Source of the DNA: Anaerolineales bacterium
Lineage (GTDB): Bacteria; Chloroflexota; Anaerolineae; Anaerolineales; UBA11579
DNA length: 64,000 nt
Assembly: GCA_025808555.1 (NCBI GenBank)
Contig: CP075526.1
Coordinates: 1,070,712 to 1,134,711, forward strand
Reading direction: 5' to 3'
Notes under the pieces: generated by a model
Told to the model about the DNA's origin: nothing
Database searches by the model: none
Seen by the model: the letters and a program-made list of their open reading frames with translations, nothing else
Part shown: positions 42,895-61,143 of the stretch, piece by piece
Layout: every line of letters starts with the position of its first letter
Numbering within the stretch: position 1 is the stretch's first letter
Program-made: the position numbers and the translations under genes

Positions 42895-44664
42895 TTAGCT
42901 CAGCTTCTCGAGCTCATTCACCATATTGGCGACGACATCATAGCCGCCCTGCCAGAAGGCCGGGTCTTTGATGTCTACGCCGGCGTTCTTGAGGATGTTC
43001 TCCGGGGAGTCGGAGCCGCCTGCAGAGAGGAGCTGGATGTAGCGCGGTTTGAACGAGTCGCCCTCGGCTTTGTACTGCTGGTAGAGCGAGAAGACGAGCA
43101 GCTGGCCGAAGGAGTAGGCGTAGACGTAGAACGGATAGTAGAAGATATGCGGGATGGAGACCCATTCGTACTTGAACTCATCGGCGATGTCCATCGAGTC
43201 GCCAAACTGATTGTTTAGATTCGCCATGTAGGCGGCGGAGAGCTCGTCTACGCTGGCGCCCTGGCTGACCATCTCGTGGGCCTGGCGCTCAAAGAGGGCA
43301 AAGCCGACCTGGCGCATGATGGTGGCGTAGGCATCATCCACCTGGCCGAAGAGGATGTCTCGGCGGACGGCGGGGTCGGTTTCTTCTTCGAGCAGGCGGT
43401 CGATGAGCAGCATCTCACCGAAGGTGGATGCGGTCTCAGCGAGCGGCAGCGAGGAGTGGAAGTTGAAGGCGTTGTGCTTATCGGCCAGGACGGCGTGCAC
43501 AGCGTGGCCGAATTCGTGGGCCAGGGTGGACACATCGCGGGCGGCGCCGGTGTAGTTGATCAACACATACGGCAGCAGGGCCGGATCAGCGGAAGAGCAG
43601 AAGGCGCCGCCGCGCTTGCCCTTGCGGACTTCACTATCCACGTGGCCAGCATCGAAGATGCGGCGGGAAATATCGGCCAGTTGAGGGTCAAAGCTGCCGA
43701 AGGATTCGAGGGTGAGGGCGACGGCCTTATCGTAGGAATATTCTTTGGTGGACTTGGCGACGGGGGCATAGATATCGTAACGGCGCAGCTTGTCCATGCC
43801 GAGGACTTTGGCCTTCATTTTGAAGAAGCGCTGGAAGATGCGGGTGTTCTCCTCCGAGACGCCGAGCAAGGTGTCGACGACCTCGTCTGAGATGTCGTTG
43901 CCGAGGTTGCGAACGGAGATGGCGCTCTCGAACTTGCGCAGGTCGAGGTTCTCGGACTTCCAGTCACGCGTGACGGTCTGGTACATCTGGCCGAGGATGG
44001 GGGCATCCTCGCCATAGACGCGGTAGAGCTCCTGGTAGGCGTTGCGGCGATGGTCTGGATTGGGGCTGTAGGCCAGCTTCATCAGCTCGCCGCGAGTGAG
44101 CTCTTTGATCTCGCCGTCGACATCTACTTTGAAGACGTAGCGGTCGGTGATGGCGGAGTAGAGGGCCTGCATGGCCTTGGCGCCGGTGACGTCTTTGAGG
44201 TTGATGATCTTCTCTTCGGCCTCGGTGAGCGTGTAGGGCTTGAAGTTGCGGATCTGGCGCAGCCAATAGTCGAACTCCGGCCCGGCGGAGGCTTGCAGCT
44301 TGGCGGCGAGGTCATCAGAGAGCGCCTTCCACCAGATGCTGAAGAAGAGGGTCTTGTTGCTGAGCTCGGCCATGAGCTGGTCGACGCGGGCCTGAAAGGC
44401 CTGGGCTTCCTGGTTCTGGGTGTCTTCGCTGAACCAGAGACCGGCGAACTGATCGATACGAGCGGCGAGGCGGGTGTTTTGCTCCATCTGGGTGACGATG
44501 GCTTTGAAGTCGGCGTCACTGATTTTGTCGGTGAGCTTTTCGCGCTGCTTTTCAAAAGCGGCGACATTGCTCTCGAGCTTTTTGATGGCGGCTTTCATCT
44601 CGGAGCTGTCGGCCCCGGGGAAGAGGTCTTTGAGGGACCAGCGGCTGAGGGTGTATTCGGTCAT
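42895..44664 (-). CDS. pepF: oligoendopeptidase F, M3 family
   Basis: This 589-residue zinc metallopeptidase cleaves short peptides in the cytoplasm. The zinc site HEFGHAVH (about residue 376) and a downstream glutamate (LAETASTFGEMLL) are intact, as are the YSFGQLLVFSLYQQY helix and the GGSDSPENILKNAGVDI motif near the C terminus. The ATG at 44664 begins MTEYTLSRWSLKDLFPG, typical of the family; the frame extends further upstream but into a dispersed repeat. The ribosome site AAAAGGAAAA is fair. It stands alone. Confidence 0.93.
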   Translation of the reverse strand: MTEYTLSRWSLKDLFPGADSSEMKAAIKKLESNVAAFEKQREKLTDKISDADFKAIVTQMEQNTRLAARIDQFAGLWFSEDTQNQEAQAFQARVDQLMAELSNKTLFFSIWWKALSDDLAAKLQASAGPEFDYWLRQIRNFKPYTLTEAEEKIINLKDVTGAKAMQALYSAITDRYVFKVDVDGEIKELTRGELMKLAYSPNPDHRRNAYQELYRVYGEDAPILGQMYQTVTRDWKSENLDLRKFESAISVRNLGNDISDEVVDTLLGVSEENTRIFQRFFKMKAKVLGMDKLRRYDIYAPVAKSTKEYSYDKAVALTLESFGSFDPQLADISRRIFDAGHVDSEVRKGKRGGAFCSSADPALLPYVLINYTGAARDVSTLAHEFGHAVHAVLADKHNAFNFHSSLPLAETASTFGEMLLIDRLLEEETDPAVRRDILFGQVDDAYATIMRQVGFALFERQAHEMVSQGASVDELSAAYMANLNNQFGDSMDIADEFKYEWVSIPHIFYYPFYVYAYSFGQLLVFSLYQQYKAEGDSFKPRYIQLLSAGGSDSPENILKNAGVDIKDPAFWQGGYDVVANMVNELEKLS

Positions 44665-44713
44665 GAGGTGTTTTCCTTTTCTTGACTGAATTGTAGCTTG
44701 GCTGGGAAATTTA

Positions 44714-44749
44714 GCCACAGATGAACACAGATGCGTGGCTGCGCCACGC
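44714..44749. repeat. ACAGATGAACACAGAT repeat with palindrome
   Basis: GCCACAGATGAACACAGAT is followed at once by the 7-bp inverted repeat GCGTGGC-TGC-GCCACGC (44733-44749). The first part recurs at 52348 and, reversed, at 6941-6970. Confidence 0.65.
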
Positions 44750-44769
44750 GGCGCAGATAAAACCCTAAT

Positions 44770-45867
44770 TTATTTATCTTTGATTCCTTCACGCAGCAAT
44801 TGGCGCAGGTCGTCGATGGGGCGGCGGCGGCCGGTGTCTGGGTCGATGTAGTGCCAATGCTGCCAGCCGTTGGCGGGTGCGGCGAGGGCCTCTTTGGCGG
44901 CCTGGTGAATAGAGGCGCGGCGGCCGTTGTATCTGAGCGAGCCATCGGCGAGGATGCGGGCGCTCTCGCGGCCCTTTTCGCCGAGGTAGAGGCGCTGGCC
45001 GGCTTCGAGCAGGCCGGCTTCGAGCAGGTTGCCGAAGGGAATGCGCGGCTCGCGACGGGGCTCATGCGCCTCGAAGAGCTCGGCTTCGTAGGCGACGGGC
45101 TCGATCTGGCCGATGCGGCGGCGGGCTAGACGGACGTAGGCGGGGTCTTGCTCGATGCCGATCCAGTTGCGGTGCAGGCGCTTGGCAACGGCGCCGGTGG
45201 TGCCGGAACCGAAGAAGGGGTCAAGAACTACATCGCCGGGGTTGGTACTGGAGAGCAGGACGCGGTAGAGCAATGATTCCGGCTTTTGCGTTGGGTGGGC
45301 GCTCTCGCCATCGGCGCGCAGACGCTCGCCCCCGGAGGCGATGGGGAGCAGCCAATCGCTGCGCATCTGCTTGTCTTCGTTGAGCGACTTCATGGCGTGA
45401 TAGTTGAAAGTGTACGGCGCGCCCTGCTCTTTTTGGGCCCAGAGCAGGGTTTCGTGAGCGTTGGTGAAACGGGTGCCGCGGAAATTGGGCGTGGGGTTGG
45501 CTTTGACCCAGACGATGGAGTTGAGCAGCCAGTAGTCAAGATCTTGCAGGATGTTGCCGACGCGATGGATGTTGTGATAGCTGCCGATGACCCAGAGGGT
45601 GCCGCTGGGCTTGAGGACGCGGCGGCAGGCGGCGAGCCAGGCACGAGTGAAGTCATCATAGGCGGCGAAATCATCAAAACGGTCCCAGGCTTCCTGGACG
45701 CCGCGGACCTTGGTGTTGTTGGGGCGGCGCAGCTCGCCGCCGAGCTGGAGGTTGTAGGGGGGATCGGCAAAGACGAGGTCGATGGAGTTGGCGGGGAGTT
45801 TGGCCAGCTCGGCCAGGCAGTCGCCGTGGAGGACGGAGTTGAGGGGCAGGGATGTGGCGCGGGGCAT
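44770..45867 (-). CDS. CcrM-type adenine DNA methyltransferase (GANTC-like)
   Basis: The 365-residue beta-class N6-adenine methyltransferase has its catalytic motif before the SAM motif: VFADPPYNLQLGGELRRP (about residue 31) and DPFFGSGTTGAVAKRL (about 210). Along its length it follows the Caulobacter CcrM pattern: WDRFDDFAAYDDFTRAWL, WVIGSYHNIHRVG, NPTPNFRGTRFTNAHETLLWA, HPTQKPESLLYRV, then a C-terminal domain with EPRIPFGNLLEAGLL, DGSLRYNGRRASIH and NGWQHWHY. CcrM methylates GANTC, so that target is likely. No restriction enzyme gene is adjacent, so it is probably an orphan regulatory methylase. ATG 45867 fits the family N terminus. Confidence 0.9.
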   Translation of the reverse strand: MPRATSLPLNSVLHGDCLAELAKLPANSIDLVFADPPYNLQLGGELRRPNNTKVRGVQEAWDRFDDFAAYDDFTRAWLAACRRVLKPSGTLWVIGSYHNIHRVGNILQDLDYWLLNSIVWVKANPTPNFRGTRFTNAHETLLWAQKEQGAPYTFNYHAMKSLNEDKQMRSDWLLPIASGGERLRADGESAHPTQKPESLLYRVLLSSTNPGDVVLDPFFGSGTTGAVAKRLHRNWIGIEQDPAYVRLARRRIGQIEPVAYEAELFEAHEPRREPRIPFGNLLEAGLLEAGQRLYLGEKGRESARILADGSLRYNGRRASIHQAAKEALAAPANGWQHWHYIDPDTGRRRPIDDLRQLLREGIKDK

Positions 45868-46299
45868 GAGTGCGTGGTCTCCGGCGCTTATTATGGATAA
45901 GGGGCAGGAATTGTGCGTCGGAAGCGGTGCGGGAGTTTTTGCGCCGTACGCGAAGCGGAGATGCTGCGCTGAGGGGCAAATGTAGATCAGCGGGCAAGGG
46001 CGAAAGGCGGAACAATGAGGTATTTGCATTCGCGAATCTCTTGCAGGGGCTCTGCCCCTGCGACCCCGTTGGGGGAACCTACGCTGCGCTTTGAGTTGGT
46101 TCCCCCCGAGCCCCCTCCGCAGACGCTCGTGTGAGTTGTGCATTCTGTCGCGGTTCCTCTGCGACCCGCGCCGAGGAATTGGTCTAAGGAAAGTTTTTTG
46201 TGAGCTAGGATCACACAACTTGCAAAAAGATGTTGCTCGTTAAGTCGGTGAGGGTATAGGGTGCAACTGAAAAGATATCTGGACATGGTGAGAGTTGGC
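45868..46299. other. 432-bp gap between the methylase and the RecA-like ATPase genes
   Basis: I see no gene here. It contains two palindromes, GCAGGGGC-TCT-GCCCCTGC (46043-46061) and GGGGGAACC/GGTTCCCCC (46071-46079, 46098-46106), which together look like a dispersed structured repeat. A CATAAT box at 45890-45895 on the minus strand may drive the methylase. Confidence 0.5.
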
Positions 46300-47526
46300 T
46301 TAGGCATGGTTGACAGCCTCGTGGCCGAGCGGGGTGAGGGCGTAAAGGGCGGGCGTGCCGTGGCCGCCGGGATTGGTGCGAGTGATGTAGCCGGCTGAGG
46401 CAAGCTCGTACACAAGGGTGCGGGCGCGGGAAGCGCCGGGCTGGGAAATGAGTTGTGGAGTGGCGGCTTCGCCAAGTTCGGCGAGGGTGAGGAGGAGGCT
46501 GCGGGCGGAGCGGCTGAGCCTGGCCGGCGCGGTTTGGCGATCGGCGAGGGATAGAGTAAATGTGTCTGGCGAGAAGTGGGTCTGGGCGGTGAGGGAGAGC
46601 GGCTCGACATCGCGGGCTTTGATGGTGGAGAGTTGAATGCAAGAGTCTTGCGGCGGGGATTGGGCCAGGAGCATGTGATCTACGCCAGAGGAAAGGGCGG
46701 AGGAGCCGCGGAAGACGCCTTGCTTATTGGTGTGGTGAATGACCAGCACAGCGACATCCGCCTGAAGGCTGAGGCGGCGCAGGTTGGCAAGAACGGGCTG
46801 GACGGAGAGGACATTGTTCTCATCTGTGCCGGGCATGATGTTGTTGAGGCAATCGATGACGATGAGGCCGGCGTTGAGGGAGTGAGCGCGCTGGACGAGG
46901 GGGACGACGACGTTGTCTTCAGCAAAGTTGTGGAAGGCAGGCGGGATGAAATGGAGCGGGGCTGTGCGGGGCGCGTTGAAGCCGCGCATGACAAGGGCGA
47001 GGCGAGACCAGGTGCGCTGCAAGCCGCCCTCTTCATCGACAATTAAGACTGGAGCAGGTTGCGTGGAGCGGCCGAGCCAGGGCTGGCCAGTGGCGACGCT
47101 GACGGCGAGATGGAGGGCGAGCCAGGTCTTTTTGGCGCCGGGCGCGCCGACAAGCAGGTTGAGGCTAGGACGGGCGATGACGCCTTGGACAAGGGCTGGC
47201 TGTGCTGGAGGCGGAGTTTCAAGAGCTTCCCAGGCGGAATAGACGCGCAGCTGGCCGATGTAGTCGTAGGCGAGATCGTCGGCAGCCTGTTGGACCTCAA
47301 GCTCCATGTGGGCGGCGTCAGGCCGCTCGGCGATGGAATCAAGGAAGGCCCGCTGGCGCTGGGCGTAGGTGCTGGCGGTGAGGCTGCGAACGGCGTTGTA
47401 GGCGGCCTGCCATTCCGGCGGCAAGGCTTCAGGCAACTGGGCGGCGAGGCCGTGGTGGATGAGGCGGGCGAGGATGTGAGCAGGCTCTGGCGCGGTGCTG
47501 GAGCCGGAGTCGGTGACAGCGTGCAT
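46300..47526 (-). CDS. RecA-like AAA ATPase (RepA/AAA_25 type) with C-terminal winged helix
   Basis: The 408-residue product has a central RecA-fold ATPase: SLNLLVGAPGAKKTWLALHLAVSVA (about 120-145), APVLIVDEEGGLQRT, LIVIDCLNNIMPG (Walker B) and VLVIHHTNKQGVFRGSSALSSGVDHMLL. The P-loop reads GAPGAKKT, with Lys before the catalytic Lys, as in RepA/AAA_25 proteins of plasmids and phages. The last 70 residues (ARSLLLTLAELGEAATPQLI...TLVYELASAGYITR) look like a winged-helix DNA-binding domain. A replication or DNA-loading role is inferred. It lies between the methylase and the SIR2 gene, close to the oriC candidate. It could be a relic of a mobile element. Confidence 0.75.
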   Translation of the reverse strand: MHAVTDSGSSTAPEPAHILARLIHHGLAAQLPEALPPEWQAAYNAVRSLTASTYAQRQRAFLDSIAERPDAAHMELEVQQAADDLAYDYIGQLRVYSAWEALETPPPAQPALVQGVIARPSLNLLVGAPGAKKTWLALHLAVSVATGQPWLGRSTQPAPVLIVDEEGGLQRTWSRLALVMRGFNAPRTAPLHFIPPAFHNFAEDNVVVPLVQRAHSLNAGLIVIDCLNNIMPGTDENNVLSVQPVLANLRRLSLQADVAVLVIHHTNKQGVFRGSSALSSGVDHMLLAQSPPQDSCIQLSTIKARDVEPLSLTAQTHFSPDTFTLSLADRQTAPARLSRSARSLLLTLAELGEAATPQLISQPGASRARTLVYELASAGYITRTNPGGHGTPALYALTPLGHEAVNHA

Positions 47527-47694
47527 GGAACCCCCAAGGCTGGACTGCGAAATGTTGCAAGTGGGGGGAATGTAGCAGGGATTAGCGGGGGCGAGAGGGA
47601 TTGGGGCGCGGTGTCAAGGAGGAGGTTCAGCGAAAATAACGCTCAACCAGACTAGTCAATCGCCTTTAGGATGTTACTTTCTTGGGAGGTGTTT

Positions 47695-49089
47695 CTAGAT
47701 ATTTCCTTTATCATCCTTCATTTCCTTGCTAATAAAATCGCCATTCAAAAATTTAGGCAAGGTCTCAGCACAATCACCATAAACTGAAAGTACTCGTCTT
47801 TTATCAAAATTTTGGATTCTCAATTCAAACTGTTTGGTCACTTTCTCCACAACAGAAACATCTGGGTCAAAGATAATCATTCGAGATTTCTCGTTTGTTG
47901 ATAACCACTTGCTAAGCATTCTTGAAATATATAGGTCTGCATCAGAAAAGGAGAAGCCCACGACAGCCACAATGCTGGCTTCACTGAGGGCGTCCTCGGC
48001 TCGCTCTAAGAGTGAATTTAATGAAGGAAAAATGTCAAACTTCATTGCCAGTGGAGGCACGAGCAACCCTCTTCGTTGTCCTCCACATTCCTTGCAAACT
48101 GCTATCACTGGGTAGAACGCAATATCATTGAGATAATTTTGTACAGTCGTGTTGATATCAATTAAGTGAACCTTTTGACAAGTCTCACAGAAAAACCAAT
48201 TAAGACTCCCATGAAGCTTAATAAGACGCGTCCCTGATTTTGGTGCACCACCTTGGTCATTGGTAAAATCAAGTTGATAGTTTAAGTCGTGCCCATCTTT
48301 GAGTAGCGCTAAATCCATACAGCAGTCATAGTTAGTTGTAACAATCGAGGACTTGCTGTTCCCTTTGACGTAGTCAGCTATAGCTAAGTGACCAGCATTG
48401 GGTTTTGCTGGCAACATACGACTAGATAAAAGACCGAAAAGAACTTGAAGAGTATCTTGCAAGAAGAGTACTGAAGAAAAGTCAACCCTTGGTCTTCTAA
48501 AGACCCGTCGCTCTTCTTGTGCTTGAAGATTCCCAAACAGCAGAAAGTCAACCAAATTTAGCACGTTGGGGTTTTGACTGCAGTATTCAGCAAGTTGAGC
48601 TGAAGTCAGCAAGTCTTCGATATTCTCAATCTTCTTCTCAACACAAAAATCAGCGAGTCTATTGACATCTTCGCGGTCAAGTCTTCGGGCCCTAGCCAGC
48701 ATATCTGGAAGGAGCTCTTTAACAGTGGGGATACCCGATGGTTCCGGTTTGGAAGCTCCGGCGCCTAACAAAAAGACTATATTCTCGGTTTTGGGGTCAA
48801 CTAGCTGTACTTCTTCATCAACTCCCAAGAGGTGGGCTACCAGCCTTTTTACTTCTTCTAGTAATCTTGCATAACGATGGGCGGAAGGTCGACTTGATAA
48901 CTCTGAATAGATATCAAGCCAGTCTGGGTGTAAGCTCTCCTCCCCAGACAATATATCTTCGTCAGTTATTGCTTCTCGCAACAAACTGACTGCGTGTGAA
49001 GTTGCACCTTCTTCAAGAGCAGTGATCGCCTCACTGAGCATGCTTACTTGCTCAATTGACACTTGTTCTACCCCCAACTTTATTTTCAT
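47695..49089 (-). CDS. SIR2-domain protein, A+T-rich, candidate defence NADase
   Basis: The 464-residue product contains a SIR2 NAD-binding domain: IVFLLGAGASKPEPSGIPTV (about residue 105), IVTTNYDCCMDLAL (about 252), IKLHGSLNWF with the catalytic-type histidine (about 294), a zinc-ribbon-like CETC...CKEC and VVGFSFSDADLYISRML (about 385). The first 100 residues are helical and unrecognised. Sampled stretches are 30-42% G+C against about 62% nearby, pointing to recent transfer. SIR2 domains of this stand-alone kind often deplete NAD in antiphage defence; that role here is inferred, and no partner gene is obvious. AGAGGG precedes the ATG. Confidence 0.82.
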   Translation of the reverse strand: MKIKLGVEQVSIEQVSMLSEAITALEEGATSHAVSLLREAITDEDILSGEESLHPDWLDIYSELSSRPSAHRYARLLEEVKRLVAHLLGVDEEVQLVDPKTENIVFLLGAGASKPEPSGIPTVKELLPDMLARARRLDREDVNRLADFCVEKKIENIEDLLTSAQLAEYCSQNPNVLNLVDFLLFGNLQAQEERRVFRRPRVDFSSVLFLQDTLQVLFGLLSSRMLPAKPNAGHLAIADYVKGNSKSSIVTTNYDCCMDLALLKDGHDLNYQLDFTNDQGGAPKSGTRLIKLHGSLNWFFCETCQKVHLIDINTTVQNYLNDIAFYPVIAVCKECGGQRRGLLVPPLAMKFDIFPSLNSLLERAEDALSEASIVAVVGFSFSDADLYISRMLSKWLSTNEKSRMIIFDPDVSVVEKVTKQFELRIQNFDKRRVLSVYGDCAETLPKFLNGDFISKEMKDDKGNI

Positions 49090-49129
49090 GTTCCCTCTGT
49101 ATTAATCTCTTAGAATTTTACCAGTCACT

Positions 49130-50188
49130 CTACACATTAAACCTAACGTTGATGATGTCGCCGTCCGCCATCTTGTACTCCTTGCCCTCGAGGCGGAGGC
49201 GGCCTTTGTCGCGGGCCTGGGCCATGCCGCCGAGCTCGAGGAGTTCATCGCCGGCGACGATCTCGGCGCGGATGAAGCCGCGGGCGATATCGGAGTGGAT
49301 GGCGCCGGCGGCCTCCAGGGCGCTGGCGTGCTTGCGCAGCATCCAGGCGTGGGCCTCGGGCTCGCCGACGGTGTAGAAGGTCTGCGTGTCCATCAGGTCG
49401 TAGGCGGCGCGGATGATGCGCAGGGAGCCGGGCTCCTGCAAGCCATATTCTTGTAAGAATATGGCTTGCTCATCAGCGGGCAACTGGGCCAGCTCCATTT
49501 CAAGCTTGCCTTGCAGAGCCAACACGGGCAGGCTGGAGGTGAGCGCGGGGGCAGCCTGGCCCTCGCCGAGGTTGATGACGGCGAGGATGGGCTTAAGGGT
49601 CAGGAGGCCGATGCCGGCGCTGGCAGTGATCTCGTCGTCGGTGAGGCCGGCGGTGCGCAGCGGCTTGTTATCTGAGAGGGCCGCGTGCAGTTTTTCGAAG
49701 TGGGCGATCTGGCGATCGAGGGCGGCGATATCACGGCCGCCTTTGCCGCGCTCTTCTTTGAGCTTTTGCTGCTTGCGCTCGACAATGATGAGATCGTTGA
49801 GGAGCAGCTCGTCTTCGATGGAGCGCAGGTCACGGGCGGCGTCAACGGTGGTGGCGGGGTGGGCCACGCTATCGTCCTCGAAGGCGCGCAAAACGATGAG
49901 CAGCCCGTCCATGCCACTGAGGGCGTTGAGCAGCTGGCCGCTGAGGCCCTGGGACGCCTCGCCAGAGCCCATACCGGCCACGTCGGCGAAAGAGATCTGG
50001 GCGTGCACGATCTTCTTGGAGGCGAATAGGGCAGCGAGGCGCTTGAGGCGCTCGTCTGGCACGTCGACCACGGCGGTGGTGATCTCAATGCGGCCGGCGC
50101 TCATGGCGAGCGGGCGGTTGCTGTGGGTGAGGGCGTTGAATATGGTGGTCTTGCCGGATTGCGGCAGGCCGATGATGCCTAATTTCAT
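49130..50188 (-). CDS. ychF: YchF/OLA1 family nucleotide-binding protein
   Basis: The 352-residue product is a TRAFAC-class P-loop protein that prefers ATP and binds ribosomes. MKLGIIGLPQSGKTTIFNALT is the P-loop, DVAGMGSGEASQGLSGQLLNAL the G3/switch region, and AVINLGEG holds the altered G4 motif (NxxE instead of NKxD), which is the family hallmark. The C-terminal TGS domain is visible in TFYTVGEPEAHAW and RGFIRAEIV. ATG 50188 gives the classical N terminus, but GTG 50197 lies 5 bases after a TATAAG box (50203-50208) and could be the start of a leaderless mRNA. Confidence 0.9.
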   Translation of the reverse strand: MKLGIIGLPQSGKTTIFNALTHSNRPLAMSAGRIEITTAVVDVPDERLKRLAALFASKKIVHAQISFADVAGMGSGEASQGLSGQLLNALSGMDGLLIVLRAFEDDSVAHPATTVDAARDLRSIEDELLLNDLIIVERKQQKLKEERGKGGRDIAALDRQIAHFEKLHAALSDNKPLRTAGLTDDEITASAGIGLLTLKPILAVINLGEGQAAPALTSSLPVLALQGKLEMELAQLPADEQAIFLQEYGLQEPGSLRIIRAAYDLMDTQTFYTVGEPEAHAWMLRKHASALEAAGAIHSDIARGFIRAEIVAGDELLELGGMAQARDKGRLRLEGKEYKMADGDIINVRFNV

Positions 50189-50202
50189 ACGTTGCACTAG
50201 TC

Positions 50203-50424: not shown

Positions 50425-50506
50425 GCCGAAGTGGCGGAACTGGCAGACGCGCGCGACTCAAAATCGCGTTCCCTTGGGAGTGTGGGTTCGATTCCCACCT
50501 TCGGCA
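50425..50506 (+). tRNA. tRNA-Leu (anticodon CAA)
   Basis: The cloverleaf is complete: acceptor GCCGAAG/CTTCGGC, D arm with TGGCGGAACTGGCAGACG, anticodon stem CGCGA/TCGCG around loop CTCAAAA (anticodon CAA at 50459-50461, reading UUG), a long class II variable arm and T arm GTGGG-TTCGATT-CCCAC. The discriminator base is A; CC follows but not the full CCA, so the end is added after transcription. Confidence 0.97.
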
Positions 50507-50510
50507 CCTT

Positions 50511-50540
50511 AAAAACAACGGCCCGCCGGCCGTTGTTTTT
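50511..50540 (+). terminator. terminator after tRNA-Leu
   Basis: AAAAACAACGGCC (50511-50523) pairs with GGCCGTTGTTTTT (50528-50540) around CGCC, with a T-rich end. Confidence 0.88.
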
Positions 50541-50550
50541 AGTTTATTTC

Positions 50551-50930
50551 TGTGGATAACCTGGCTTGTTTCGGTGGATAACTCAGGGGATTTGTGGATA
50601 GCAGGCTGTTGATAGCCGCTCTTCTGCCTCTGCAGTTGTCAAGCCTGGCTGTGTGTATGAGCGTGGATACTTTGAGGATAATCGGGCATATTCCCTATAG
50701 GATAGCTCTGCACGGGAGTACTCCCTATTGTCTGCTACCTGCCGTTGTGGAAAATTGCTTACGCTTTAGCCCAAGATAGCCTGCTCTTTTCAGCGTATTG
50801 GCGGCATATAGTGCTTTAGCGTGAAAATAGGGTAGCTATCCACAAATCCACAGGCCCTAAGACTAATACTAATAACTGATACAAAGAACTAAAGAGAGGG
50901 TTAGGGTTTATAGATTAAGACAAACCTTCA
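50551..50930. other. candidate chromosomal replication origin (oriC), DnaA-box cluster
   Basis: In a 430-bp gene-free stretch I find one perfect DnaA box (TGTGGATAA, 50551-50559) and 8-of-9 matches at 50573-50581, 50593-50601, 50673-50681, 50746-50754 and 50836-50844, with 7-of-9 matches at 50607-50615, 50662-50670 and 50844-50852. An A+T-rich tract with CTAATACTAATAACTGAT follows (50855-50930) and could be the unwinding element. Genes left of it (42.9-50.2 kb) all run left and genes right of it (50.9-64 kb) all run right. dnaN is 9 kb away and two parS sites are 12-13.5 kb away. A short open frame at 50594-50779 inside it is not a gene. Confidence 0.75.
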
Positions 50931-50940
50931 AAGGAGCCTG

Positions 50941-51621
50941 ATGACGACTTACATTTGGTATGGACACGCCACCTGCGCTTTTGTGATCAATGGGATGCAT
51001 GTGGTGGTTGACCCTTTCTTTCGGGAGAATGCCCAGGCGTCTATTGCGATGGACGATGTTCCGGCGGACTACATTTTGGTTAGCCATGGGCACTGGGATC
51101 ATTCGGGGGACGTGGAGCCGATAGCCCAGCGCACGGGCGCCATGATCATTGCCAATGACGAGATTGCCCGCTATTACGCTGCTAAGGGATACAAGACCCA
51201 CGGCCAGCATATTGGCGGCGGGTTCAAGCACCCGTTCGGCTATTTGAAGCTGACGCATGCGGCGCATGGGTCAGGCTTTCCCGACGGGTTCCCAGGGGGC
51301 ACGGCGAGCGGCTTTTTGCTGACCACGCCAGAGGGCAAGAAGGTCTACCTGGGCTGCGACACGGGCTTGTTCGGCGATATGGCGCTGATCGGCGATGAGG
51401 GCGTGGAGTTTGCGGCCCTGCCGATCGGCGACAACTTCACCATGGGGCCAGACGATGCTCTGAAGGCGGTGAAGCTGCTGCGGCCCAAGCGGGTGCAGCC
51501 GTATCACTACTCGACCTGGGATGTGATCAAGCAGGACGAGCACGCCTGGGTAAAACGAGTGAACGCGGAAACGGACACGGAGGCGTTCGTGATGCAGCCC
51601 GGAGACTCGCTGGAGATTTAG
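50941..51621 (+). CDS. UPF0173 metal-dependent hydrolase (metallo-beta-lactamase fold)
   Basis: The 226-residue product is a small metallo-beta-lactamase-fold hydrolase: YIWYGHATCAFVINGMHVVVDPFF at the start, the metal motif SHGHWDHSGDV (HxHxDH), a second His region LTHAAHGS and the Asp in YLGCDTGLFGDM, then QPYHYSTWDVIKQD. The substrate of the UPF0173 family is unknown. AAAGGAG precedes the ATG by four bases. It is the first gene right of the oriC candidate, and its transcript would start in the A+T-rich tract. A GCCTGCA-TTCA-TGCAGGC hairpin begins at the last base of its stop codon. Confidence 0.88.
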   Translation: MTTYIWYGHATCAFVINGMHVVVDPFFRENAQASIAMDDVPADYILVSHGHWDHSGDVEPIAQRTGAMIIANDEIARYYAAKGYKTHGQHIGGGFKHPFGYLKLTHAAHGSGFPDGFPGGTASGFLLTTPEGKKVYLGCDTGLFGDMALIGDEGVEFAALPIGDNFTMGPDDALKAVKLLRPKRVQPYHYSTWDVIKQDEHAWVKRVNAETDTEAFVMQPGDSLEI

Positions 51622-51659
51622 CCTGCATTCATGCAGGCGGCAGGCGCCGGGTCTATACT
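51621..51659 (+). promoter_or_regulatory. hairpin and -10 box before the molybdopterin oxidoreductase gene
   Basis: GCCTGCA/TGCAGGC (51621-51627, 51632-51638) is followed by TATACT (51654-51659). The box ends 7 bases before ATG 51667, so the transcript would be leaderless. Confidence 0.55.
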
Positions 51660-51666
51660 GAGGGCT

Positions 51667-52308
51667 ATGTTCGACTTCTCGAAGGATCGCCGTGAGGAAG
51701 AAGCGCGGGTGCGCAGCGAAGGGCGACTGCCGCCCGGACAATCGCTGACGCAGAAGTTCCCGGTGCTGCATTATGGGCCGGTGCCGCGCTTTAACCCGGA
51801 GACCTGGGACCTGCGCGTTTGGGGCGAGGTAGAGGAAGAGCGGCGCTGGAGCTGGGACGAGTTCAAGCAATTGCCGCGCCGCAAAGTTGTGATGGATCTG
51901 CACTGCGTGACGCGCTGGAGCAAGTTCGACACCGAGTGGGAAGGTGTGGGCTTGAAAGACCTGGTGGATAAAGGATTGATCAAGCTCAAGCCCACGGCCA
52001 AATATCTGCTGCAGCATGCAGAGTATGGCTTCACCGTGAACATCCCGATCGAGGTGGCTCTGGCGGAGAATTTTCTGCTGGCGGATATGTTCAACGGGCA
52101 ACCGCTGGACCCAGACCACGGGTTGCCGCTGCGTGGCGTGGTGGGCTACATCCGCGGGCGCGAGGATCTGGAGACGCCGTATTTGTGGAAGGGCGCCAAA
52201 TGGCTGCGCGGGCTGGAGTTCTTGACCGAGGACCAGCTGGGCTTCTGGGAGCAGGCCGGGTATCACAACCGCGCCAATGTGTGGAAGGAAGAGCGGTTCG
52301 CGCGCTAG
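51667..52308 (+). CDS. molybdopterin-binding oxidoreductase (sulfite oxidase-like)
   Basis: The 213-residue product is a short, soluble member of the sulfite-oxidase/MsrP molybdopterin fold. VVMDLHCVTRWSKFDTEWEGVGLKDLV (about residue 76) holds the cysteine that should bind molybdenum. FNPETWDLRVWGEVEEERRWSWDEFKQLP precedes it, and DHGLPLRGVVGYIRGREDLETPYLWKGAKWLRGLEF closes the fold. There is no signal peptide, so it is cytoplasmic. ATG 51667 has no ribosome site but sits 7 bases after a TATACT box. A MOSC-domain gene 6 kb downstream is also linked to molybdenum cofactor use. The substrate is unknown. Confidence 0.85.
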   Translation: MFDFSKDRREEEARVRSEGRLPPGQSLTQKFPVLHYGPVPRFNPETWDLRVWGEVEEERRWSWDEFKQLPRRKVVMDLHCVTRWSKFDTEWEGVGLKDLVDKGLIKLKPTAKYLLQHAEYGFTVNIPIEVALAENFLLADMFNGQPLDPDHGLPLRGVVGYIRGREDLETPYLWKGAKWLRGLEFLTEDQLGFWEQAGYHNRANVWKEERFAR

Positions 52309-52317
52309 CTTCTGAGC

Positions 52318-52342
52318 AGAGGCAACGGGGAGCCTCTTTTTT
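52318..52342 (+). terminator. terminator after the molybdopterin oxidoreductase gene
   Basis: AGAGGC and GCCTCT (52318-52323, 52332-52337) with an AACGGGGA loop, then five T. Confidence 0.8.
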
Positions 52343-52347
52343 GTTTA

Positions 52348-52505
52348 ACCACAGATGAACACAGATAGACAAAGATTGTTGATGTTTGCCTCAACTGGCT
52401 TTGCGAGCTGGCCGGAAGGCCGGCGAAGCAATCCCCAAGATGTTTTGGATACTCGCATGGAGATTGCTTCGTGCGCAGGCAAGCCTGCGCCTCGCAATGA
52501 CAGGC
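52348..52505. repeat. composite dispersed repeat overlapping the start of an esterase gene
   Basis: ACCACAGATGAACACAGATA (52348-52367) starts it. Then GGCTTTGCGAGCTGGCC with palindrome GGCCGGAAGGCCGG and GAAGCAATC, and finally GATTGCTTCGTGCGCAGG...CGCAATGACAGG (about 52460-52505). Both of the commonest repeat types of the window occur side by side here. Confidence 0.65.
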
Positions 52506-53419
52506 GAGCGCGGATTACTGCGCTGACGCTAATAGTGGCCGCATGGCTGCTGGCGGCGTGCGGGGGGCAGCCGCTGGCTGGCATGCCAACGGAGACGGCA
52601 ACCAAGCCTGCGCCGCAGGCGTCTGCAGCGGCGGCAACGGCGACGTTGGATGTGAACTTGGCCAAGGCCACGGAAACGCAGGCGGCGCTGGCGACACAGC
52701 TGGTGAAGGCGGAGTGCCTGGAAACCGGCGGCGAGGTGACCTATCACGAGGTGGATTCAGCTTATCTGGACTACGGGCTGCGCTTCCGAGTGTATACACC
52801 CCCGTGCTACGACCAGAGCGTAGAGCGCTACCCGGTGCTGTACCTGGTGCATGGGCAGACCTACAACGATGACCAGTGGGACCGGCTGGGCGCCGACGAG
52901 GCCGCCAGCGCCCTGATCGCGGCGGGCGAGGTGGCGCCATTCATTATTGTGATGCCGTATGACCGCTCGTCCAATCAGCCATCGCAAGACCCGTTCCGCC
53001 AGGCGGTCATCGAAGAGTTGCTACTCTGGGTGGATGCAAATTACCGCACGCTGACCGAGCGCGAGTTCCGGGCGGTGGGCGGGCTCTCGCGTGGGGCGTC
53101 GTGGGCGATCCACTTCGCGTTCAACTATCCGGAGCTGTTCTCGGCGGTGGGTGGGCACAGCCCGCCGGTGTTCCAGGAGGATGCGCCACAGATGCGCGGC
53201 TGGCTGGACGGGATGGCGATGGACAATATGCCGCGCATCTGGCTGGATATTGGCGAGCGCGACCAGCGCGCCATCCTGAACTCGGCCATCTGGTTTGAGG
53301 AGCTGCTGACGCAGCGCAACATCCCGCATGAGTGGTATCTGTTCAGCGGCGACCACAGCGAAGCGTACTGGAGCAGCCATGTAGAACAATACCTGCGTTG
53401 GTATGCGCAGGACTGGTAA
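52457..53419 (+). CDS. esterase-like lipoprotein (alpha/beta hydrolase)
   Basis: The product is a surface lipoprotein of about 320 residues with a serine-hydrolase domain. A hydrophobic stretch ITALTLIVAAWLLAAC ends in a lipobox cysteine. After an Ala/Thr linker comes RFRVYTPPCYDQ, YPVLYLVHGQTYNDDQW (oxyanion region), the nucleophile in GGLSRGASWAIHFAF (GxSxG), LDIGERDQRA and the histidine in SGDHSEAYW, matching the enterochelin esterase/esterase D group. The start is uncertain: the only good ATG before the lipobox (52457) lies inside a dispersed repeat, which seems to have replaced the original 5' end. The substrate is unknown. Confidence 0.78.
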   Translation: MEIASCAGKPAPRNDRRARITALTLIVAAWLLAACGGQPLAGMPTETATKPAPQASAAAATATLDVNLAKATETQAALATQLVKAECLETGGEVTYHEVDSAYLDYGLRFRVYTPPCYDQSVERYPVLYLVHGQTYNDDQWDRLGADEAASALIAAGEVAPFIIVMPYDRSSNQPSQDPFRQAVIEELLLWVDANYRTLTEREFRAVGGLSRGASWAIHFAFNYPELFSAVGGHSPPVFQEDAPQMRGWLDGMAMDNMPRIWLDIGERDQRAILNSAIWFEELLTQRNIPHEWYLFSGDHSEAYWSSHVEQYLRWYAQDW

Positions 53420-53456
53420 GCCGACACTTTACAGTGCGGCGAGGGTGGCGGCGATT

Positions 53457-53462
53457 TATAAT
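53457..53462 (+). promoter_or_regulatory. -10 box of the gat operon, leaderless type
   Basis: A perfect TATAAT ends 8 bases before the gatC ATG at 53471, leaving a leader of 0-2 bases. No clear -35 is seen. A GCCG(A)CACT/AGTGCGGC hairpin lies just upstream (53420-53440). Confidence 0.65.
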
Positions 53463-53470
53463 TAGCGCGT

Positions 53471-53767
53471 ATGCGCTTAACCAAAGAAGACGTTGAACAT
53501 ATTGCACTGCTGGCGCGCCTGCACCTGAGCGAAGAAGAAAAAGAACGTTACGGGGAGCAACTCTCCAACATTCTTGAGCATGTAGGCAAACTGCAGGAAC
53601 TGGACACCACGGATGTGCCGGCCATGGCCAGCATTGTGGTGGAACGAAGCCGCCTGCGGCCGGATGAGCCGGCGGCGGCCATGCCGCGCGCCGAGCTGCT
53701 GGCGAATGCGCCAGAGGCGGTGGACGAGCAGTTCAAAGTGCCGCCGGTGCTGGATGGTGGCCCGTGA
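53471..53767 (+). CDS. gatC: aspartyl/glutamyl-tRNA amidotransferase subunit C
   Basis: This 98-residue subunit stabilises GatA in the complex that converts Glu-tRNA(Gln) and Asp-tRNA(Asn) to the correct amides. RLTKEDVEHIALLARLHLSEEEKERYGEQLSNILEHVGKLQELDTTDVPAM is the family pattern, with the C-terminal RPDEPAAAMPRAELLANAPEAVDEQFKVPPVL. The ATG has no ribosome site, in keeping with a leaderless transcript. Its stop overlaps the GTG start of gatA. Confidence 0.93.
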   Translation: MRLTKEDVEHIALLARLHLSEEEKERYGEQLSNILEHVGKLQELDTTDVPAMASIVVERSRLRPDEPAAAMPRAELLANAPEAVDEQFKVPPVLDGGP

Positions 53768-55251
53768 GCGCGGCACGCAGCGCGGCCCTGCACGAGCTGA
53801 GCGCCAAGCAGGCGCTGGCTGGATTGCGGGCGGGCACCTTCTCCAGCGTGGAGCTGACGCGCGCCTACCTGGAACGAATTGAGCAGCACAATCCGCGCTT
53901 GAACGCGTATTTGTATGTGGCGGCGGACAGTGCGCTGCAAGCGGCCGCGGCAGCCGACAAACAATACGCCAAAGCGCGACGCAGCAAAACGGCCAAACTG
54001 CCCGCGCTGCTGGGCCTGCCGATCGCGGTGAAAGATGTGCTGGCGGTGGCTGGCATGCCGGCCACCTGCGGCTCGCGCATCCTCGAGAATTTTGTACCCA
54101 GTTACATGGCCACGAGCGTGCAGCGTCTGCTGGACGCCGGCGTGGTGGTGCTGGGCAAAACCAATACCGATGAATTCGCCATGGGCTCCTCTACCGAGAA
54201 TTCGGCGTATGGCGTGACGCACAACCCGTGGGATGAGACGCGCGTGCCGGGCGGGAGCAGCGGCGGCAGCGCGGCGGCAGTGGCCGCCCGCCTGGCGCCA
54301 GTGGCGCTGGGAACGGACACGGGCGGCAGTGTGCGCCAGCCAGCGGCGTTCTGCGGGCTGACCGGGCTCAAGACCACCTATGGGCGTGTCTCGCGCTATG
54401 GGCTGGTGGCGTTCGGCTCCTCTTTGGATACGGTGGGCGTGCTGGCGCGGGATGCGGCGGACGCGGGCCTGATACTGAAAGTGATGGGCGGCTACGACCC
54501 GCGGGACGCGACCACTGTAGAAAAGACGCCCAAGCTGGACAAACCGAGCGGCAAATCGCTCAAGGGTTTGCGGATCGGCGTGCCGAAGGAATACTTCATC
54601 GAAGGGCTTTCGGCCGAGGTGGAAAACGGGGTGCGCGAAGGAATCCGCCAGCTGGAGGCGCTGGGCGCCAAGGCGGTGCCAGTGAGCCTGCCGCATACGG
54701 AATATGCGTTGCCGGTGTACTACATCATCGCACCAGCGGAAGCCTCGGCCAACCTGGCGCGTTTTGACGGCGTGCGCTATGGCCTGCGCGTGGCGCAGGA
54801 CGACTTGATCGAGATGTTCAAGCACAGCCGCGGGGCCGGTTTTGGGCCGGAAGTGAAGCGACGCATCATGATCGGCTCGTATGCCTTGTCTGCCGGGTAC
54901 TACGATGCGTACTACGGCCAGGCGCAGAAGGTGCGGGCGCTGATCCGCCGGGATTTTGACGAAGTGTTCAAAAAAGTGGACATCATCGCCGCTCCTTCGA
55001 CCCCGAGCACGGCATTTCGCATCGGCGCGCACGGCAGCGACCCGCTAGAGATGTACCTGGAAGACGTATTCACCCTGCCGGCCAACCTGGCGGGTGTGCC
55101 CGGCCTGTGCGTGTGCGCTGGGTTTGATATGCAAGGGTTGCCGATTGGCCTGCAGATGCTTGGGCCGCACTTTGCGGACGAGCGGCTGCTGGCAGTGGCA
55201 GCGGCCTATCAAAAGGTGACCGACTGGCACACACAGGCGCCAGCGCTGTAG
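53764..55251 (+). CDS. gatA: aspartyl/glutamyl-tRNA amidotransferase subunit A
   Basis: This 495-residue amidase-signature glutaminase provides ammonia for tRNA-dependent amidation. The Ser-cisSer-Lys triad is visible: lysine in PIAVKDVLAVAG (about residue 86), serines in PGGSSGGSAAAVAARLAP (about 162) and TDTGGSVRQPAAFCG (about 185). C-terminal blocks RIMIGSYALSAGYYDAYYGQAQKVR and LPANLAGVPGLCVCAGF are standard. It starts with GTG at 53764, overlapping gatC (GTGA). A nucleotidyltransferase gene separates it from gatB. Confidence 0.96.
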   Translation: MSAARSAALHELSAKQALAGLRAGTFSSVELTRAYLERIEQHNPRLNAYLYVAADSALQAAAAADKQYAKARRSKTAKLPALLGLPIAVKDVLAVAGMPATCGSRILENFVPSYMATSVQRLLDAGVVVLGKTNTDEFAMGSSTENSAYGVTHNPWDETRVPGGSSGGSAAAVAARLAPVALGTDTGGSVRQPAAFCGLTGLKTTYGRVSRYGLVAFGSSLDTVGVLARDAADAGLILKVMGGYDPRDATTVEKTPKLDKPSGKSLKGLRIGVPKEYFIEGLSAEVENGVREGIRQLEALGAKAVPVSLPHTEYALPVYYIIAPAEASANLARFDGVRYGLRVAQDDLIEMFKHSRGAGFGPEVKRRIMIGSYALSAGYYDAYYGQAQKVRALIRRDFDEVFKKVDIIAAPSTPSTAFRIGAHGSDPLEMYLEDVFTLPANLAGVPGLCVCAGFDMQGLPIGLQMLGPHFADERLLAVAAAYQKVTDWHTQAPAL

Positions 55252-55264
55252 CAAGGAGATGACC

Positions 55265-56281
55265 ATGAGCGAGACGCTGAAAATCATTGTGCCTATGGCC
55301 GGCTTTGGCACGCGCCTGCGCCCGCACACGTGGAGCCGCCCCAAGCCGCTGCTGACCGCGGCCGGCGACACGATATTGGGGCATGTGCTGAAACTGCTGC
55401 AGACCGCGCCCGGCGCCGAGCAGGCCGAGATGGTTTTTATTGTGGGCTGGCTGGGCGAACAGGTACAGGCATACATGAAAGCCGAGCACCCCAAAGTGAA
55501 GGCGCACTTTGTGGAGCAGAAGGAAATGAAAGGCCAGTCCCACGCGCTGGCGCAGGCGCGCGAATTCATGAGTGGGCCAACGCTGGTGATCTTTGTGGAT
55601 ACGGTAGTGGAGACGGATTTCTCAGCCCTGGACAAGGAAGAAGTGGACGCGGTGGCGTGGGTGAAGCCCGTGCCTGACCCGCGCCGCTTTGGCGTGGCTG
55701 CGCTGGGTGAAGATGGGCTGGTGAGCGGCTTGATCGAGAAGCCCAGCGACATGAGCAACAACCTGGCCGTGGTTGGCATTTATTACTTCAAGCGCGGCGA
55801 AGAGCTGATGGCGGCGATCGACGAGCAGATGGAAAAAGGCGTGATCACCAAGAACGAATTCTTTTTGGCGGACGCGATCGACATCATGCTCAAGAAGGGG
55901 CTGCGCATGCGCACCGAAGTGGTGGGCGAATGGCTGGATGCGGGACTACCGGACACGGTGCTGGAAACGAATCAGAAGCTATTGGAAAAGGGCCGCGACA
56001 ATAGCGGCCAGATTAACCATAGTGGTGTAACGCTGCACGCTCCGGTATATATTCACCCCAGCGCCACAGTCGAGAACAGCACAGTGGGGCCGTACGTCTC
56101 CATCGGGGCGGGCTCGACGGTGCGCAACAGCACGATCGAGGATGCGGTGGTGGAGCGTGGCGTGGTTATCGAGGATAGCCAACTGAAGCACTCGCTAATC
56201 GGCGAGCGCAGCCAGGTGCGCGGCGTGCGCGGCCAGGTGAACGTGGGCGATGATTCCTCGGTGAGCGGAGAGGCGGCGTAA
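55265..56281 (+). CDS. sugar-phosphate nucleotidyltransferase
   Basis: The 338-residue product makes an NDP-sugar from a sugar 1-phosphate. The N-terminal Rossmann-like domain starts IIVPMAGFGTRLRPHTWSRPKPLL (nucleotide-binding signature), with LVIFVDTVVETDF as the metal-binding Asp block and AVVGIYYFKRGEEL following. The C-terminal 80 residues contain hexapeptide-repeat turns (VYIHPSATVENSTVGPYVSIGAGSTVRNSTIEDAVVERG), forming a left-handed beta-helix. It resembles glucose-1-phosphate thymidylyl- and mannose-1-phosphate guanylyltransferases; the base cannot be told. AAGGAG lies 6 bases before ATG 55265. It sits between gatA and gatB, an uncommon place. Confidence 0.87.
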   Translation: MSETLKIIVPMAGFGTRLRPHTWSRPKPLLTAAGDTILGHVLKLLQTAPGAEQAEMVFIVGWLGEQVQAYMKAEHPKVKAHFVEQKEMKGQSHALAQAREFMSGPTLVIFVDTVVETDFSALDKEEVDAVAWVKPVPDPRRFGVAALGEDGLVSGLIEKPSDMSNNLAVVGIYYFKRGEELMAAIDEQMEKGVITKNEFFLADAIDIMLKKGLRMRTEVVGEWLDAGLPDTVLETNQKLLEKGRDNSGQINHSGVTLHAPVYIHPSATVENSTVGPYVSIGAGSTVRNSTIEDAVVERGVVIEDSQLKHSLIGERSQVRGVRGQVNVGDDSSVSGEAA

Positions 56282-56286
56282 GCAGC

Positions 56287-57750
56287 ATGTCTGCCAAGTA
56301 CCAGCCTGTTATCGGGCTAGAAGTGCACGCGGTGTTGGAAACGCGCAGCAAGATGTTCTGCGCGTGCCCGGTGGTGGATTCCACGGTGGGCGAGCCGAAC
56401 ATTGCCGTGTGCCCGGTGTGCTCTGGCATGCCCGGCATGCTGCCAGTGATCAACCAGGCCGCGGTGGAATATGCGCTGCGAGTGGCACTGGCGCTGAACT
56501 GCACCATCAACCTGACCAGCATTTTTGCGCGCAAGAGCTACTTTTACCCGGACCTACCCAAGGGTTTCCAGATCTCACAATACGAGCAGCCCCTGGCGCA
56601 GAATGGCTGGCTGATGATCGACACGGCCGAGGGCGAGCAACGCGTCGCCATCCGGCGCGTGCATATTGAAGAGGACACCGGCAAGCTGACCCATGTGGAA
56701 AAAGGTGGCGAGCGCTATTCCTTGGTGGATCTCAATCGCAGCGGCGTGCCGCTGTTGGAGATCGTCACTGAGCCGGAGTTGCATTCAGTGGAAGCGGTGC
56801 GTAATTGTGCGTATGCGCTGCGCAGCATTTTGCGCTATGTTGGTGTGAACTCTGGCAATCTGGAAAAGGGTTTGATGCGGATCGAGCCGAATATTTCGAT
56901 CCGACCGGTGGGCAGCACCGAGTTTGGCACGCGGGCCGAGATCAAGAACCTAAACAGCTTCCGCTCGCTGGAACGCGCCACTACGTATGAGCTGGCGCGT
57001 CAAGAACAGCTGGTGGGAGCGGGCGGCCAGGTGGTGCAGCAGACCCTGGGTTGGGATGATGCGCGTGGCACCACGCAGGCGCAGCGCTCCAAGGAAGTGG
57101 CCGAGGATTATCGCTACTTCCCGGAGCCTGACCTGCCGCCGTTGGTGCTAGAAAAGGCCTGGGTCGAAAAGATCCGCAAAGGCTTGCCTGAATTACCGCA
57201 GGCGCGGCGCGAGCGCTTTATCAGTAAATACGGCCTGAAAGCCTATGACGCTAACGTCATTGTGGCTGAGCGTGAAGTGGCTGATTTTTATGAGGCGGCG
57301 ATTGTGGCGGCCAAAGTGGCGGACGCAAAAACGATTGCCAATTGGCTGACTGGGCCGTTGTTTGGGCTTATGAATGAGGGTGGCATCGAGATCGGCGAAC
57401 TGCGCTTCGGCGCCAAGCATTTCGCCGCCCTGTGCGACCAGGTGGCGGGTGGCAAGGTGAACGCGGCCGGTGGGCGTGAAGTGCTGGGCGTGATGTTCAC
57501 CGAGGGCGGCAGCCCGGCCAGCATCATCAAGGCGCGCGGGTTGCAGCAGATCTCGGATAGCGGGCAGCTGGCGGCCTGGGTGGGCGAAGTGATCGAGGCC
57601 AATCCTAAGCAGGCGGCAGACTATTTGGCGGGGAATACCCCGCTGCTGAACTTTCTATTTGGACAAGTAATGCAAAAGGCGAGCGGCAAAGCCAACCCGG
57701 CCGCCGTGCGCGAAGAATTGCAGGCCCAGCTGAGCAAGCTGGGAAAGTGA
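56287..57750 (+). CDS. gatB: aspartyl/glutamyl-tRNA amidotransferase subunit B
   Basis: This 487-residue subunit binds the mischarged tRNA and phosphorylates the acid. YQPVIGLEVHAVLETRSKMFCACPV and CPVCSGMPGMLPVINQAAVEYAL carry the zinc cysteines. PKGFQISQYEQPLA, IRRVHIEEDTGKL, DLNRSGVPLLEIVTEPEL and RIEPNISIRP follow in order, and the C-terminal tRNA-binding YqeY-like domain is present (EVIEANPKQAADYLAGN...FLFGQVMQ). It completes the GatCAB set in this operon, so the organism uses the indirect route to Gln-tRNA and/or Asn-tRNA. Five bases separate it from the nucleotidyltransferase. Confidence 0.96.
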   Translation: MSAKYQPVIGLEVHAVLETRSKMFCACPVVDSTVGEPNIAVCPVCSGMPGMLPVINQAAVEYALRVALALNCTINLTSIFARKSYFYPDLPKGFQISQYEQPLAQNGWLMIDTAEGEQRVAIRRVHIEEDTGKLTHVEKGGERYSLVDLNRSGVPLLEIVTEPELHSVEAVRNCAYALRSILRYVGVNSGNLEKGLMRIEPNISIRPVGSTEFGTRAEIKNLNSFRSLERATTYELARQEQLVGAGGQVVQQTLGWDDARGTTQAQRSKEVAEDYRYFPEPDLPPLVLEKAWVEKIRKGLPELPQARRERFISKYGLKAYDANVIVAEREVADFYEAAIVAAKVADAKTIANWLTGPLFGLMNEGGIEIGELRFGAKHFAALCDQVAGGKVNAAGGREVLGVMFTEGGSPASIIKARGLQQISDSGQLAAWVGEVIEANPKQAADYLAGNTPLLNFLFGQVMQKASGKANPAAVREELQAQLSKLGK

Positions 57751-57757
57751 GGCTGTG

Positions 57758-58312
57758 ATGGCTGATATGAATGGCACTGTTGAAGCGCTGGCGATCACGC
57801 CAGAATATATCCCTAGCACCGAGCTTGAGGAAGTTGAAACGACCCTGGAAGGCCTGGTGGGCGACAAGCATTTTGGCCTGACCATGAAAGCCAACAAGTT
57901 CCAGGCACCGTATCCCAAGGGTGAATTGATCCGCAATGTGCGCCAGATCTCGATCGTTTCGGCCGAGGAATTGGCGCAGATCGCCGCTGCAATGGGTGTG
58001 GAGCGTGTGGAGCCGGCCTGGCTGGGAGCGAACCTGATGCTGTCTGGCGTGCCTGACCTGACGCAACTGCCCGCCGGCAGCCGTCTGTACTTTGAGGGCG
58101 GCGCGGGCATTGTGGTGGAGGGCGAGAACATGCCGTGCGTGACGGCCGGCGGCTGCCTGGCCGACCAGTATCCTGACCGGCCGGAGCTGCGCACGGCGTT
58201 CCCCAAGCAGGCGATCGGCAAGCGCGGCCTGGTGGCGTGGGTGGAGAAACCGGGTGTGATCCGCAAGGGTGAACGCGTGACCGTGCGGCGGGCCGAGGAC
58301 GTGGGACGCTAG
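57758..58312 (+). CDS. MOSC-domain protein
   Basis: The 184-residue product is a MOSC domain, a beta-rich fold related to the molybdenum-cofactor sulfurase C terminus. MNGTVEALAITPEYIPSTELEEVE at the start, GDKHFG, NVRQISIVSAEELAQIA, LGANLMLSGVPDLTQLPAGSRLYF and the conserved cysteine in ENMPCVTAGGCLAD fit the family. It may handle sulfur or the molybdenum cofactor; a molybdopterin oxidoreductase is encoded 6 kb upstream. GAGG lies 5 bases before ATG 57758, and gatB ends 7 bases earlier, so it is part of the gat operon. Confidence 0.87.
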   Translation: MADMNGTVEALAITPEYIPSTELEEVETTLEGLVGDKHFGLTMKANKFQAPYPKGELIRNVRQISIVSAEELAQIAAAMGVERVEPAWLGANLMLSGVPDLTQLPAGSRLYFEGGAGIVVEGENMPCVTAGGCLADQYPDRPELRTAFPKQAIGKRGLVAWVEKPGVIRKGERVTVRRAEDVGR

Positions 58313-58461
58313 CATTACGAGATGTTGAGCCGTACTTAACAGCACTGCGAGGGCTCAACTTGACGGGTCTACGAGACTCTGATAGCGTATAGGCCTGTCT
58401 GAGCCTTCAGGGTCACTTCTGGACGTGAATAAACGCCTGAACAGTCTGAAACCAGCAGTAC

Positions 58462-58492
58462 ATGCGGACAACCTGGTCTGAGGTGTCCGCAT
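58462..58492 (+). promoter_or_regulatory. dyad upstream of gdhA
   Basis: ATGCGGACA and TGTCCGCAT (58462-58470, 58484-58492), perfect over 9 bp with a 13-base centre, lie 37 bases before the glutamate dehydrogenase start. It could be a regulator site or a leader hairpin. Nothing else is evident between 58313 and 58528. Confidence 0.55.
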
Positions 58493-58528
58493 AGTTGTTT
58501 AAAACACAAACTATTGTGCAGGAGAGTA

Positions 58529-59815: not shown

Positions 59816-59841
59816 GTATCGCTTATTAGCAAGACTGGTAA

Positions 59842-59870
59842 ACAAAGCGGGCTCAATAAGCCCGCTTTGT
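59842..59870 (+). terminator. intrinsic terminator after gdhA
   Basis: ACAAAGCGGGCT and AGCCCGCTTTGT (59842-59853, 59859-59870) flank CAATA. Confidence 0.82.
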
Positions 59871-59905
59871 GGTTAAAACTCGCTGTTTGGGGCCTATCAT
59901 TCAAA

Positions 59906-59914
59906 TGATATACT
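59906..59914 (+). promoter_or_regulatory. extended -10 promoter of dnaN
   Basis: TGA directly before TATACT (59909-59914) makes an extended -10 element; the -35 region is poor. The leader is about 57 bases and contains GGGAG before the start. Confidence 0.6.
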
Positions 59915-61111: not shown

Positions 61112-61143
61112 GCTCACGGCGATTTACAATCTAGCCAGGTTTT

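Follow-up and report, generated by a model that had tools for sequence, protein, structure and literature searches.

A candidate chromosomal replication origin apart from dnaA, with a DnaA unwinding element, in an uncultured Anaerolineales bacterium

The intergenic region analysed here lies within a 64,000-nucleotide stretch (the window; positions 1,070,712-1,134,711) of the single-contig genome of an Anaerolineales bacterium (G000; 2,243,062 bp) and had been proposed in a first-pass annotation as a candidate chromosomal origin of replication (oriC) outside the neighbourhood of dnaA. It extends from 50509 to 50940 of the window and, as that annotation had it, is free of genes, bordered by a tRNA-Leu gene on the left and by a gene for a UPF0173 metal-dependent hydrolase on the right (Table 1). 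Gene orientation diverges at this gap, all genes from 42895 to 50197 being encoded on the minus strand and all those from 50941 to 63511 on the plus strand, with the tRNA-Leu gene (50425-50508) also on the plus strand, in agreement with the reported flip in gene direction. The A+T-rich end of the gap, likewise reported, was placed at 50857-50935, where GC content is 31.6% vs 60.2% for the window. Close relatives are the Anaerolineales metagenome-assembled genomes DTUCFX4, ACE_CHL1, TGS_CHL6 and ACE_CHL7 (UPF0173 protein identity 92-96%).

Across 302 bp (50551-50852), the gap carries ten DnaA boxes, of which one is perfect, five have one mismatch and four have two, in line with the one perfect and about eight near-perfect boxes within 310 bp originally described. 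Skew analyses and local scans for box clusters and unwinding elements covered sampled stretches of G000 totalling ~850 kb, whilst boxes with at most one mismatch were counted over the entire 2,243,062 bp. From the 344 such boxes found genome-wide, 0.045 would be expected in 294 bp, where six were observed, and the probability of the cluster arising by chance (five further boxes within 294 bp of any box, multiplied by 344) is ~5e-7. No second place with at least three boxes of at most one mismatch within 400 bp was detected in the 850 kb sampled, and close box pairs of the type TCCACA-N4..34-TATCCACA occur at two places genome-wide, the array and C1:1234314. An intergenic cluster of DnaA boxes denser than chance, one of the features that define an oriC, is present in the gap. 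The probability that the cluster reflects coincidence or a base-composition artefact is negligible: words resembling TTATCCACA outnumber the reversed word roughly two to one across the genome (344 vs 171), an excess to which we attach no weight, against which stand the chance probability, the unique match of a published search rule and a phylogenetic footprint (both described below), the conservation by itself already refuting this explanation.

Elsewhere in the genome, two perfect DnaA boxes with a spacing of 21 bp immediately precede a 277-aa open reading frame (ORF) (L010:1501-1530; G000 C1:1234311-1234340), 113 kb right of the putative origin. Neither further one-mismatch boxes nor an unwinding element was found near this pair (C1:1234311/1234332), which is possibly a DnaA-controlled promoter or a DnaA-titrating or -reactivating site.

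The basal unwinding system (BUS) of the Bacillus subtilis oriC consists of two DnaA boxes and DnaA-trios (PMC8287927, PMC6669920), and the corresponding search rule asks for a box with at most two mismatches, a tandem partner with at most four, a spacer of 0-16 bp and then at least three NAN trios read 3'->5' (PMC8287927). A strict form of this rule (tandem boxes with at most one and at most two mismatches, a spacer no longer than 16 bp and three or more NAN trios) returned a single match in the 850 kb of G000, the element within the gap, with boxes CTATCCACA (one mismatch) and AAATCCACA (two mismatches), a counted spacer of 10 bp and four trios. Its tandem across 50836-50852 reads CTATCCACA-AATCCACA, the boxes sharing one base (8-bp period), and the NAN rule is satisfied by the last four consecutive trios of 50857-50874; the canonical trio sequence CTACTACTACGACTA is present in distant relatives. 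A weight matrix built from 37 loci in relatives, with the window sequence excluded, also identified this place alone in the 850 kb (57 bits). The A+T-rich stretch at 50857-50935 is the putative unwinding region that an oriC is expected to have beside its boxes. The element resembles the B. subtilis BUS in its tandem boxes, short GC spacer, 3'-GAT-5' type trios and A+T-rich stretch, arranged in the same order, but differs in the one-base overlap of the tandem, a second trio reading TCT, outer boxes in the opposite orientation and a distance of 116 kb to dnaA. Further to the right, the block GTTAGGGTTTATAG may represent a second protein site or the promoter of the UPF0173 gene.

Table 1. Features of the putative origin and of its surroundings, in window coordinates
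Feature	Position	Strand	Remarks
parS site TGTTTCACGTGAAACA, perfect	37239-37254		
parS site TGTTTCACGTGAAACA, perfect	38197-38212		
Skew sign-switch region	8000-17500		without DnaA-box cluster or unwinding element
ychF	49130-50197	-	left neighbour gene
tRNA-Leu(CAA)	50425-50508	+	left border of gap; not at this place in DTUCFX4 (L052)
DnaA box 1, perfect TTATCCACA	50551-50559	-	first of conserved outer pair
DnaA box 2, TTATCCACC, one mismatch	50573-50581	-	22 bp from box 1
DnaA box 3, CTATCCACA, one mismatch	50593-50601	-	not kept in every relative
Weak DnaA box, CTATCAACA, two mismatches	50607-50615	-	
Weak DnaA box, two mismatches	starts 50652	-	
Weak DnaA box, GTATCCACG, two mismatches	starts 50662 (within 50662-50681)	-	position varies between species
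DnaA box, TTATCCTCA, one mismatch	starts 50673 (within 50662-50681)	-	position varies between species
DnaA box, TTTTCCACA, one mismatch	50746-50754	-	position varies between species
Tandem DnaA boxes, CTATCCACA (50836-50844, one mismatch) and AAATCCACA (50844-50852, two mismatches)	50836-50852	+	face unwinding site
GC-rich spacer GGCC	50853-50856	+	separates boxes from trios
DnaA-trios, minus strand 3'->5' GAT TCT GAT TAT GAT TAT (plus strand CTA AGA CTA ATA CTA ATA)	50857-50874	-	
A+T-rich putative unwinding region, 79 bp	50857-50935		31.6% GC vs 60.2% for window
Block GTTAGGGTTTATAG	50900-50913	+	nearly invariant in five species
UPF0173 metal-dependent hydrolase gene	50941-51621	+	right neighbour
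dnaN	59978-61111	+	9 kb right of site; sole copy found in genome

Comparison of the region in related genomes, as the first-pass annotation had advised, revealed that the array and its key boxes are conserved, as expected of an oriC. In an alignment with four same-genus relatives (mean column identity 65%), the positions invariant in all five species amount to 8/9 in box 1, 7/9 in box 2 and 15/17 in the tandem, that is, 78-89% invariance of the key boxes vs 11% for the DNA between the main boxes. In most family genomes with the array, the two outer boxes are 21-22 bp apart; the tandem boxes are conserved across the class and, in DTUCFX4, the array is kept although the tRNA gene is not upstream. 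Wherever the element was found it is single-copy (14 of the 24 family genomes and, under the strict pattern, 25 of the 396 genomes from the class).

The array, whose elements are degenerate in some cases, stands upstream of the UPF0173 gene in about 16 of the 24 family genomes, at ~100 bp or somewhat more, an arrangement that would suit a DnaA-regulated promoter of this gene rather than an origin. In other genomes of the class, however, the element is found directly 3' of dnaA (L175, L176, L180 and L188, from other families) or before ychF (L152-L154), so that it does not track the UPF0173 gene, and a promoter needs neither trios nor an A+T-rich flank; we consider this explanation very improbable. 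The four dnaA-adjacent loci share with the window the same tandem, spacer and trio arrangement and also have further boxes upstream, but differ in their neighbours, which in the window's family are ychF, tRNA-Leu and the UPF0173 gene.

In L152-L154 (three genomes of another genus), the element is followed by ychF and a gene for a CcrM-type methyltransferase, and the window encodes a CcrM-type adenine methyltransferase 4 kb from the origin (44770-46218, minus strand; 528 bits, under the curated cut-off of 830). In two genomes of the same genus, G012 (L200-L205) and G017 (L206-L211), the segment with dnaN to the right of the element runs in the opposite orientation to that of the window, and homologues of the genes at about -3.4 to +0.6 kb of the window start sit between ychF and the element.

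The gene dnaA (C1:1005262-1006188) lies ~116 kb left of the array, and the two are 116-188 kb apart in the same-genus contigs that hold both, so the adjacency to dnaA that characterizes dnaA-linked origins is absent. The site had been described as away from both dnaA and dnaN, which held for dnaA but not for dnaN, located inside the window. An oriC beside dnaA, as in most bacteria, would match the layout of other families of the class, and on skew alone a switch fits slightly better at dnaA than at the array (residual sum of squares (RSS) 4296 vs 4344), both being worse than at 7-9 kb of the window (4069). Nevertheless, no DnaA-box cluster was detected in 3.4 kb around the G000 dnaA or at any of 21 dnaA loci of the window's family, which excludes the denser cluster beside dnaA that the first-pass annotation had named as grounds for rejecting its proposal, nor was an unwinding element found in the sampled 20 kb around the G000 dnaA, leaving a dnaA-adjacent origin extremely improbable. 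Since four genomes from other families have the element immediately after dnaA and the two are separated in the window's family, dnaA and oriC probably parted within Anaerolineae. In cyanobacteria, oriC directly adjoins dnaN and has boxes of TTTTCCACA (PMC4674748); the present site is similarly placed relative to dnaN rather than dnaA, but at a distance of 9 kb and with boxes of TTATCCACA type.

The only two perfect parS sites in the genome lie to the left of the array, at 12.6 and 13.6 kb, and in four relatives a parS pair lies about 10-12.5 kb from the element; nearby parS sites are usual for an oriC, though not defining. Both sites in the window fall at the start of or inside an ABC-transporter/CAAX-protease-like ORF (37238-39184), and no parAB was identified among the annotated genes adjoining them.

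The box cluster, the unique BUS match, the conservation of the boxes, the element beside dnaA in other families, the proximity of parS and dnaN and the diverging genes together indicate that the gap at 50545-50935 is very probably the chromosomal oriC, separated from dnaA in the window's family. With no box cluster at dnaA and the unwinding element and box footprints in the gap, the original proposal of an origin outside the dnaA neighbourhood is strongly supported. The sequences of the element, their order, their conservation and their uniqueness in the sampled genome are direct observations. By analogy with the work on B. subtilis, DnaA would bind the outer array (minus-strand boxes 1-3, together with the weaker sites) and the plus-strand tandem at 50836-50852, from which a filament of ATP-DnaA would grow across the GC spacer onto the minus-strand DnaA-trios. 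This filament would stretch the trio strand, opening 50857-50935, where the helicase would then be loaded and replication initiated.

Several observations weigh against this interpretation. The second trio, TCT, breaks the NAN rule in this species. More importantly, the site is not at the GC-skew switch, the usual position of an oriC although not part of its definition. Skew at fourfold sites, corrected for gene strand, changes sign in G000 at 43 kb to the left of the element; in three other genomes of the genus (G001, G002 and G003) the leftward distances are 34, 37 and 44 kb. Bootstrapped positions scatter little in G000 and widely in G003, whilst in G012, G017, G005 and G057 the skew is not strong enough for a switch to be placed. 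In G000, a switch at the displaced point fits far better than one at the element (RSS 409 vs 750), and the mostly leftward genes between switch and site carry right-arm skew. The plus-strand G excess on both sides of the gap, previously noted from hand counts, was confirmed. A skew minimum elsewhere had been listed as a result that would overturn the proposal, and this is partly what was found: over the sampled chromosome, cumulative GC skew is lowest inside the window, in support of an origin in this part of the genome, but the low point is at 10-17 kb, ~40 kb left of the array. The genes at 42.9-50.2 kb show an extreme C excess at coding-strand fourfold sites (skew -0.62, G000).

An assembly error was ruled out as the cause of the displaced switch, as ACE_CHL1 is collinear throughout the window. 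A single recent inversion of the block at 10-50 kb of the window was rejected because its part closest to the site is oriented identically in G005 and G012, and is also contradicted by the offset common to four genus genomes. Gene-strand bias was likewise rejected, fourfold sites on both strands keeping the switch near -40 kb. A second origin at the switch was rejected as well, since neither a cluster of boxes nor an unwinding element was detected there. The offset may reflect serial rearrangement beside the origin or a genuine displacement of the start point.

If the start point has moved, initiation in this clade may now take place 34-44 kb left of the array (about 8-17 kb of the window), with the array retained as a DnaA site, for example for titration or reactivation. 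The strand-corrected switch in four genus genomes, a stretch of the switch region unalignable with ACE_CHL1 (13.0-14.4 kb) and trios less regular in the clade than in distant relatives are consistent with such a move; however, the contiguous 170 kb holds no box cluster or unwinding element other than the array, boxes with at most two mismatches are sparse at 9-14 kb of the window, and the array, unwinding boxes included, is still strongly constrained, so we regard this explanation as quite unlikely. The unalignable stretch (13020-14420) is of low GC content and lies upstream of a Clp ATPase gene; it contains an ORF without Pfam match (13567-14307) and, around 13337-13381, the inverted repeat ATGAGAATGACCTA...TAGGTCATTCTCAT. 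It is similarly unlikely that replication in this clade, or leftward replication alone, now effectively begins 34-44 kb away from a DnaA unwinding site that has stayed fully conserved; if true, the sequence mark of the origin and the strand asymmetry would record different start points in one chromosome.

Overall, the gap is most likely an oriC, well supported and of a known type but unusually located, with the displaced skew switch as the remaining contradiction. A literature search of partial coverage found no description of an oriC in Anaerolineae, and the present analysis offers a precise candidate, complete with unwinding element, for an uncultured Anaerolineales group. The motif of the element can be used to find candidate origins across Anaerolineae independently of dnaA or skew, and its distribution provides an example of dnaA and oriC separating inside one class. 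Ultimately, the displaced switch cautions against predicting origins from skew alone and poses a puzzle regarding the stability of replication start points.
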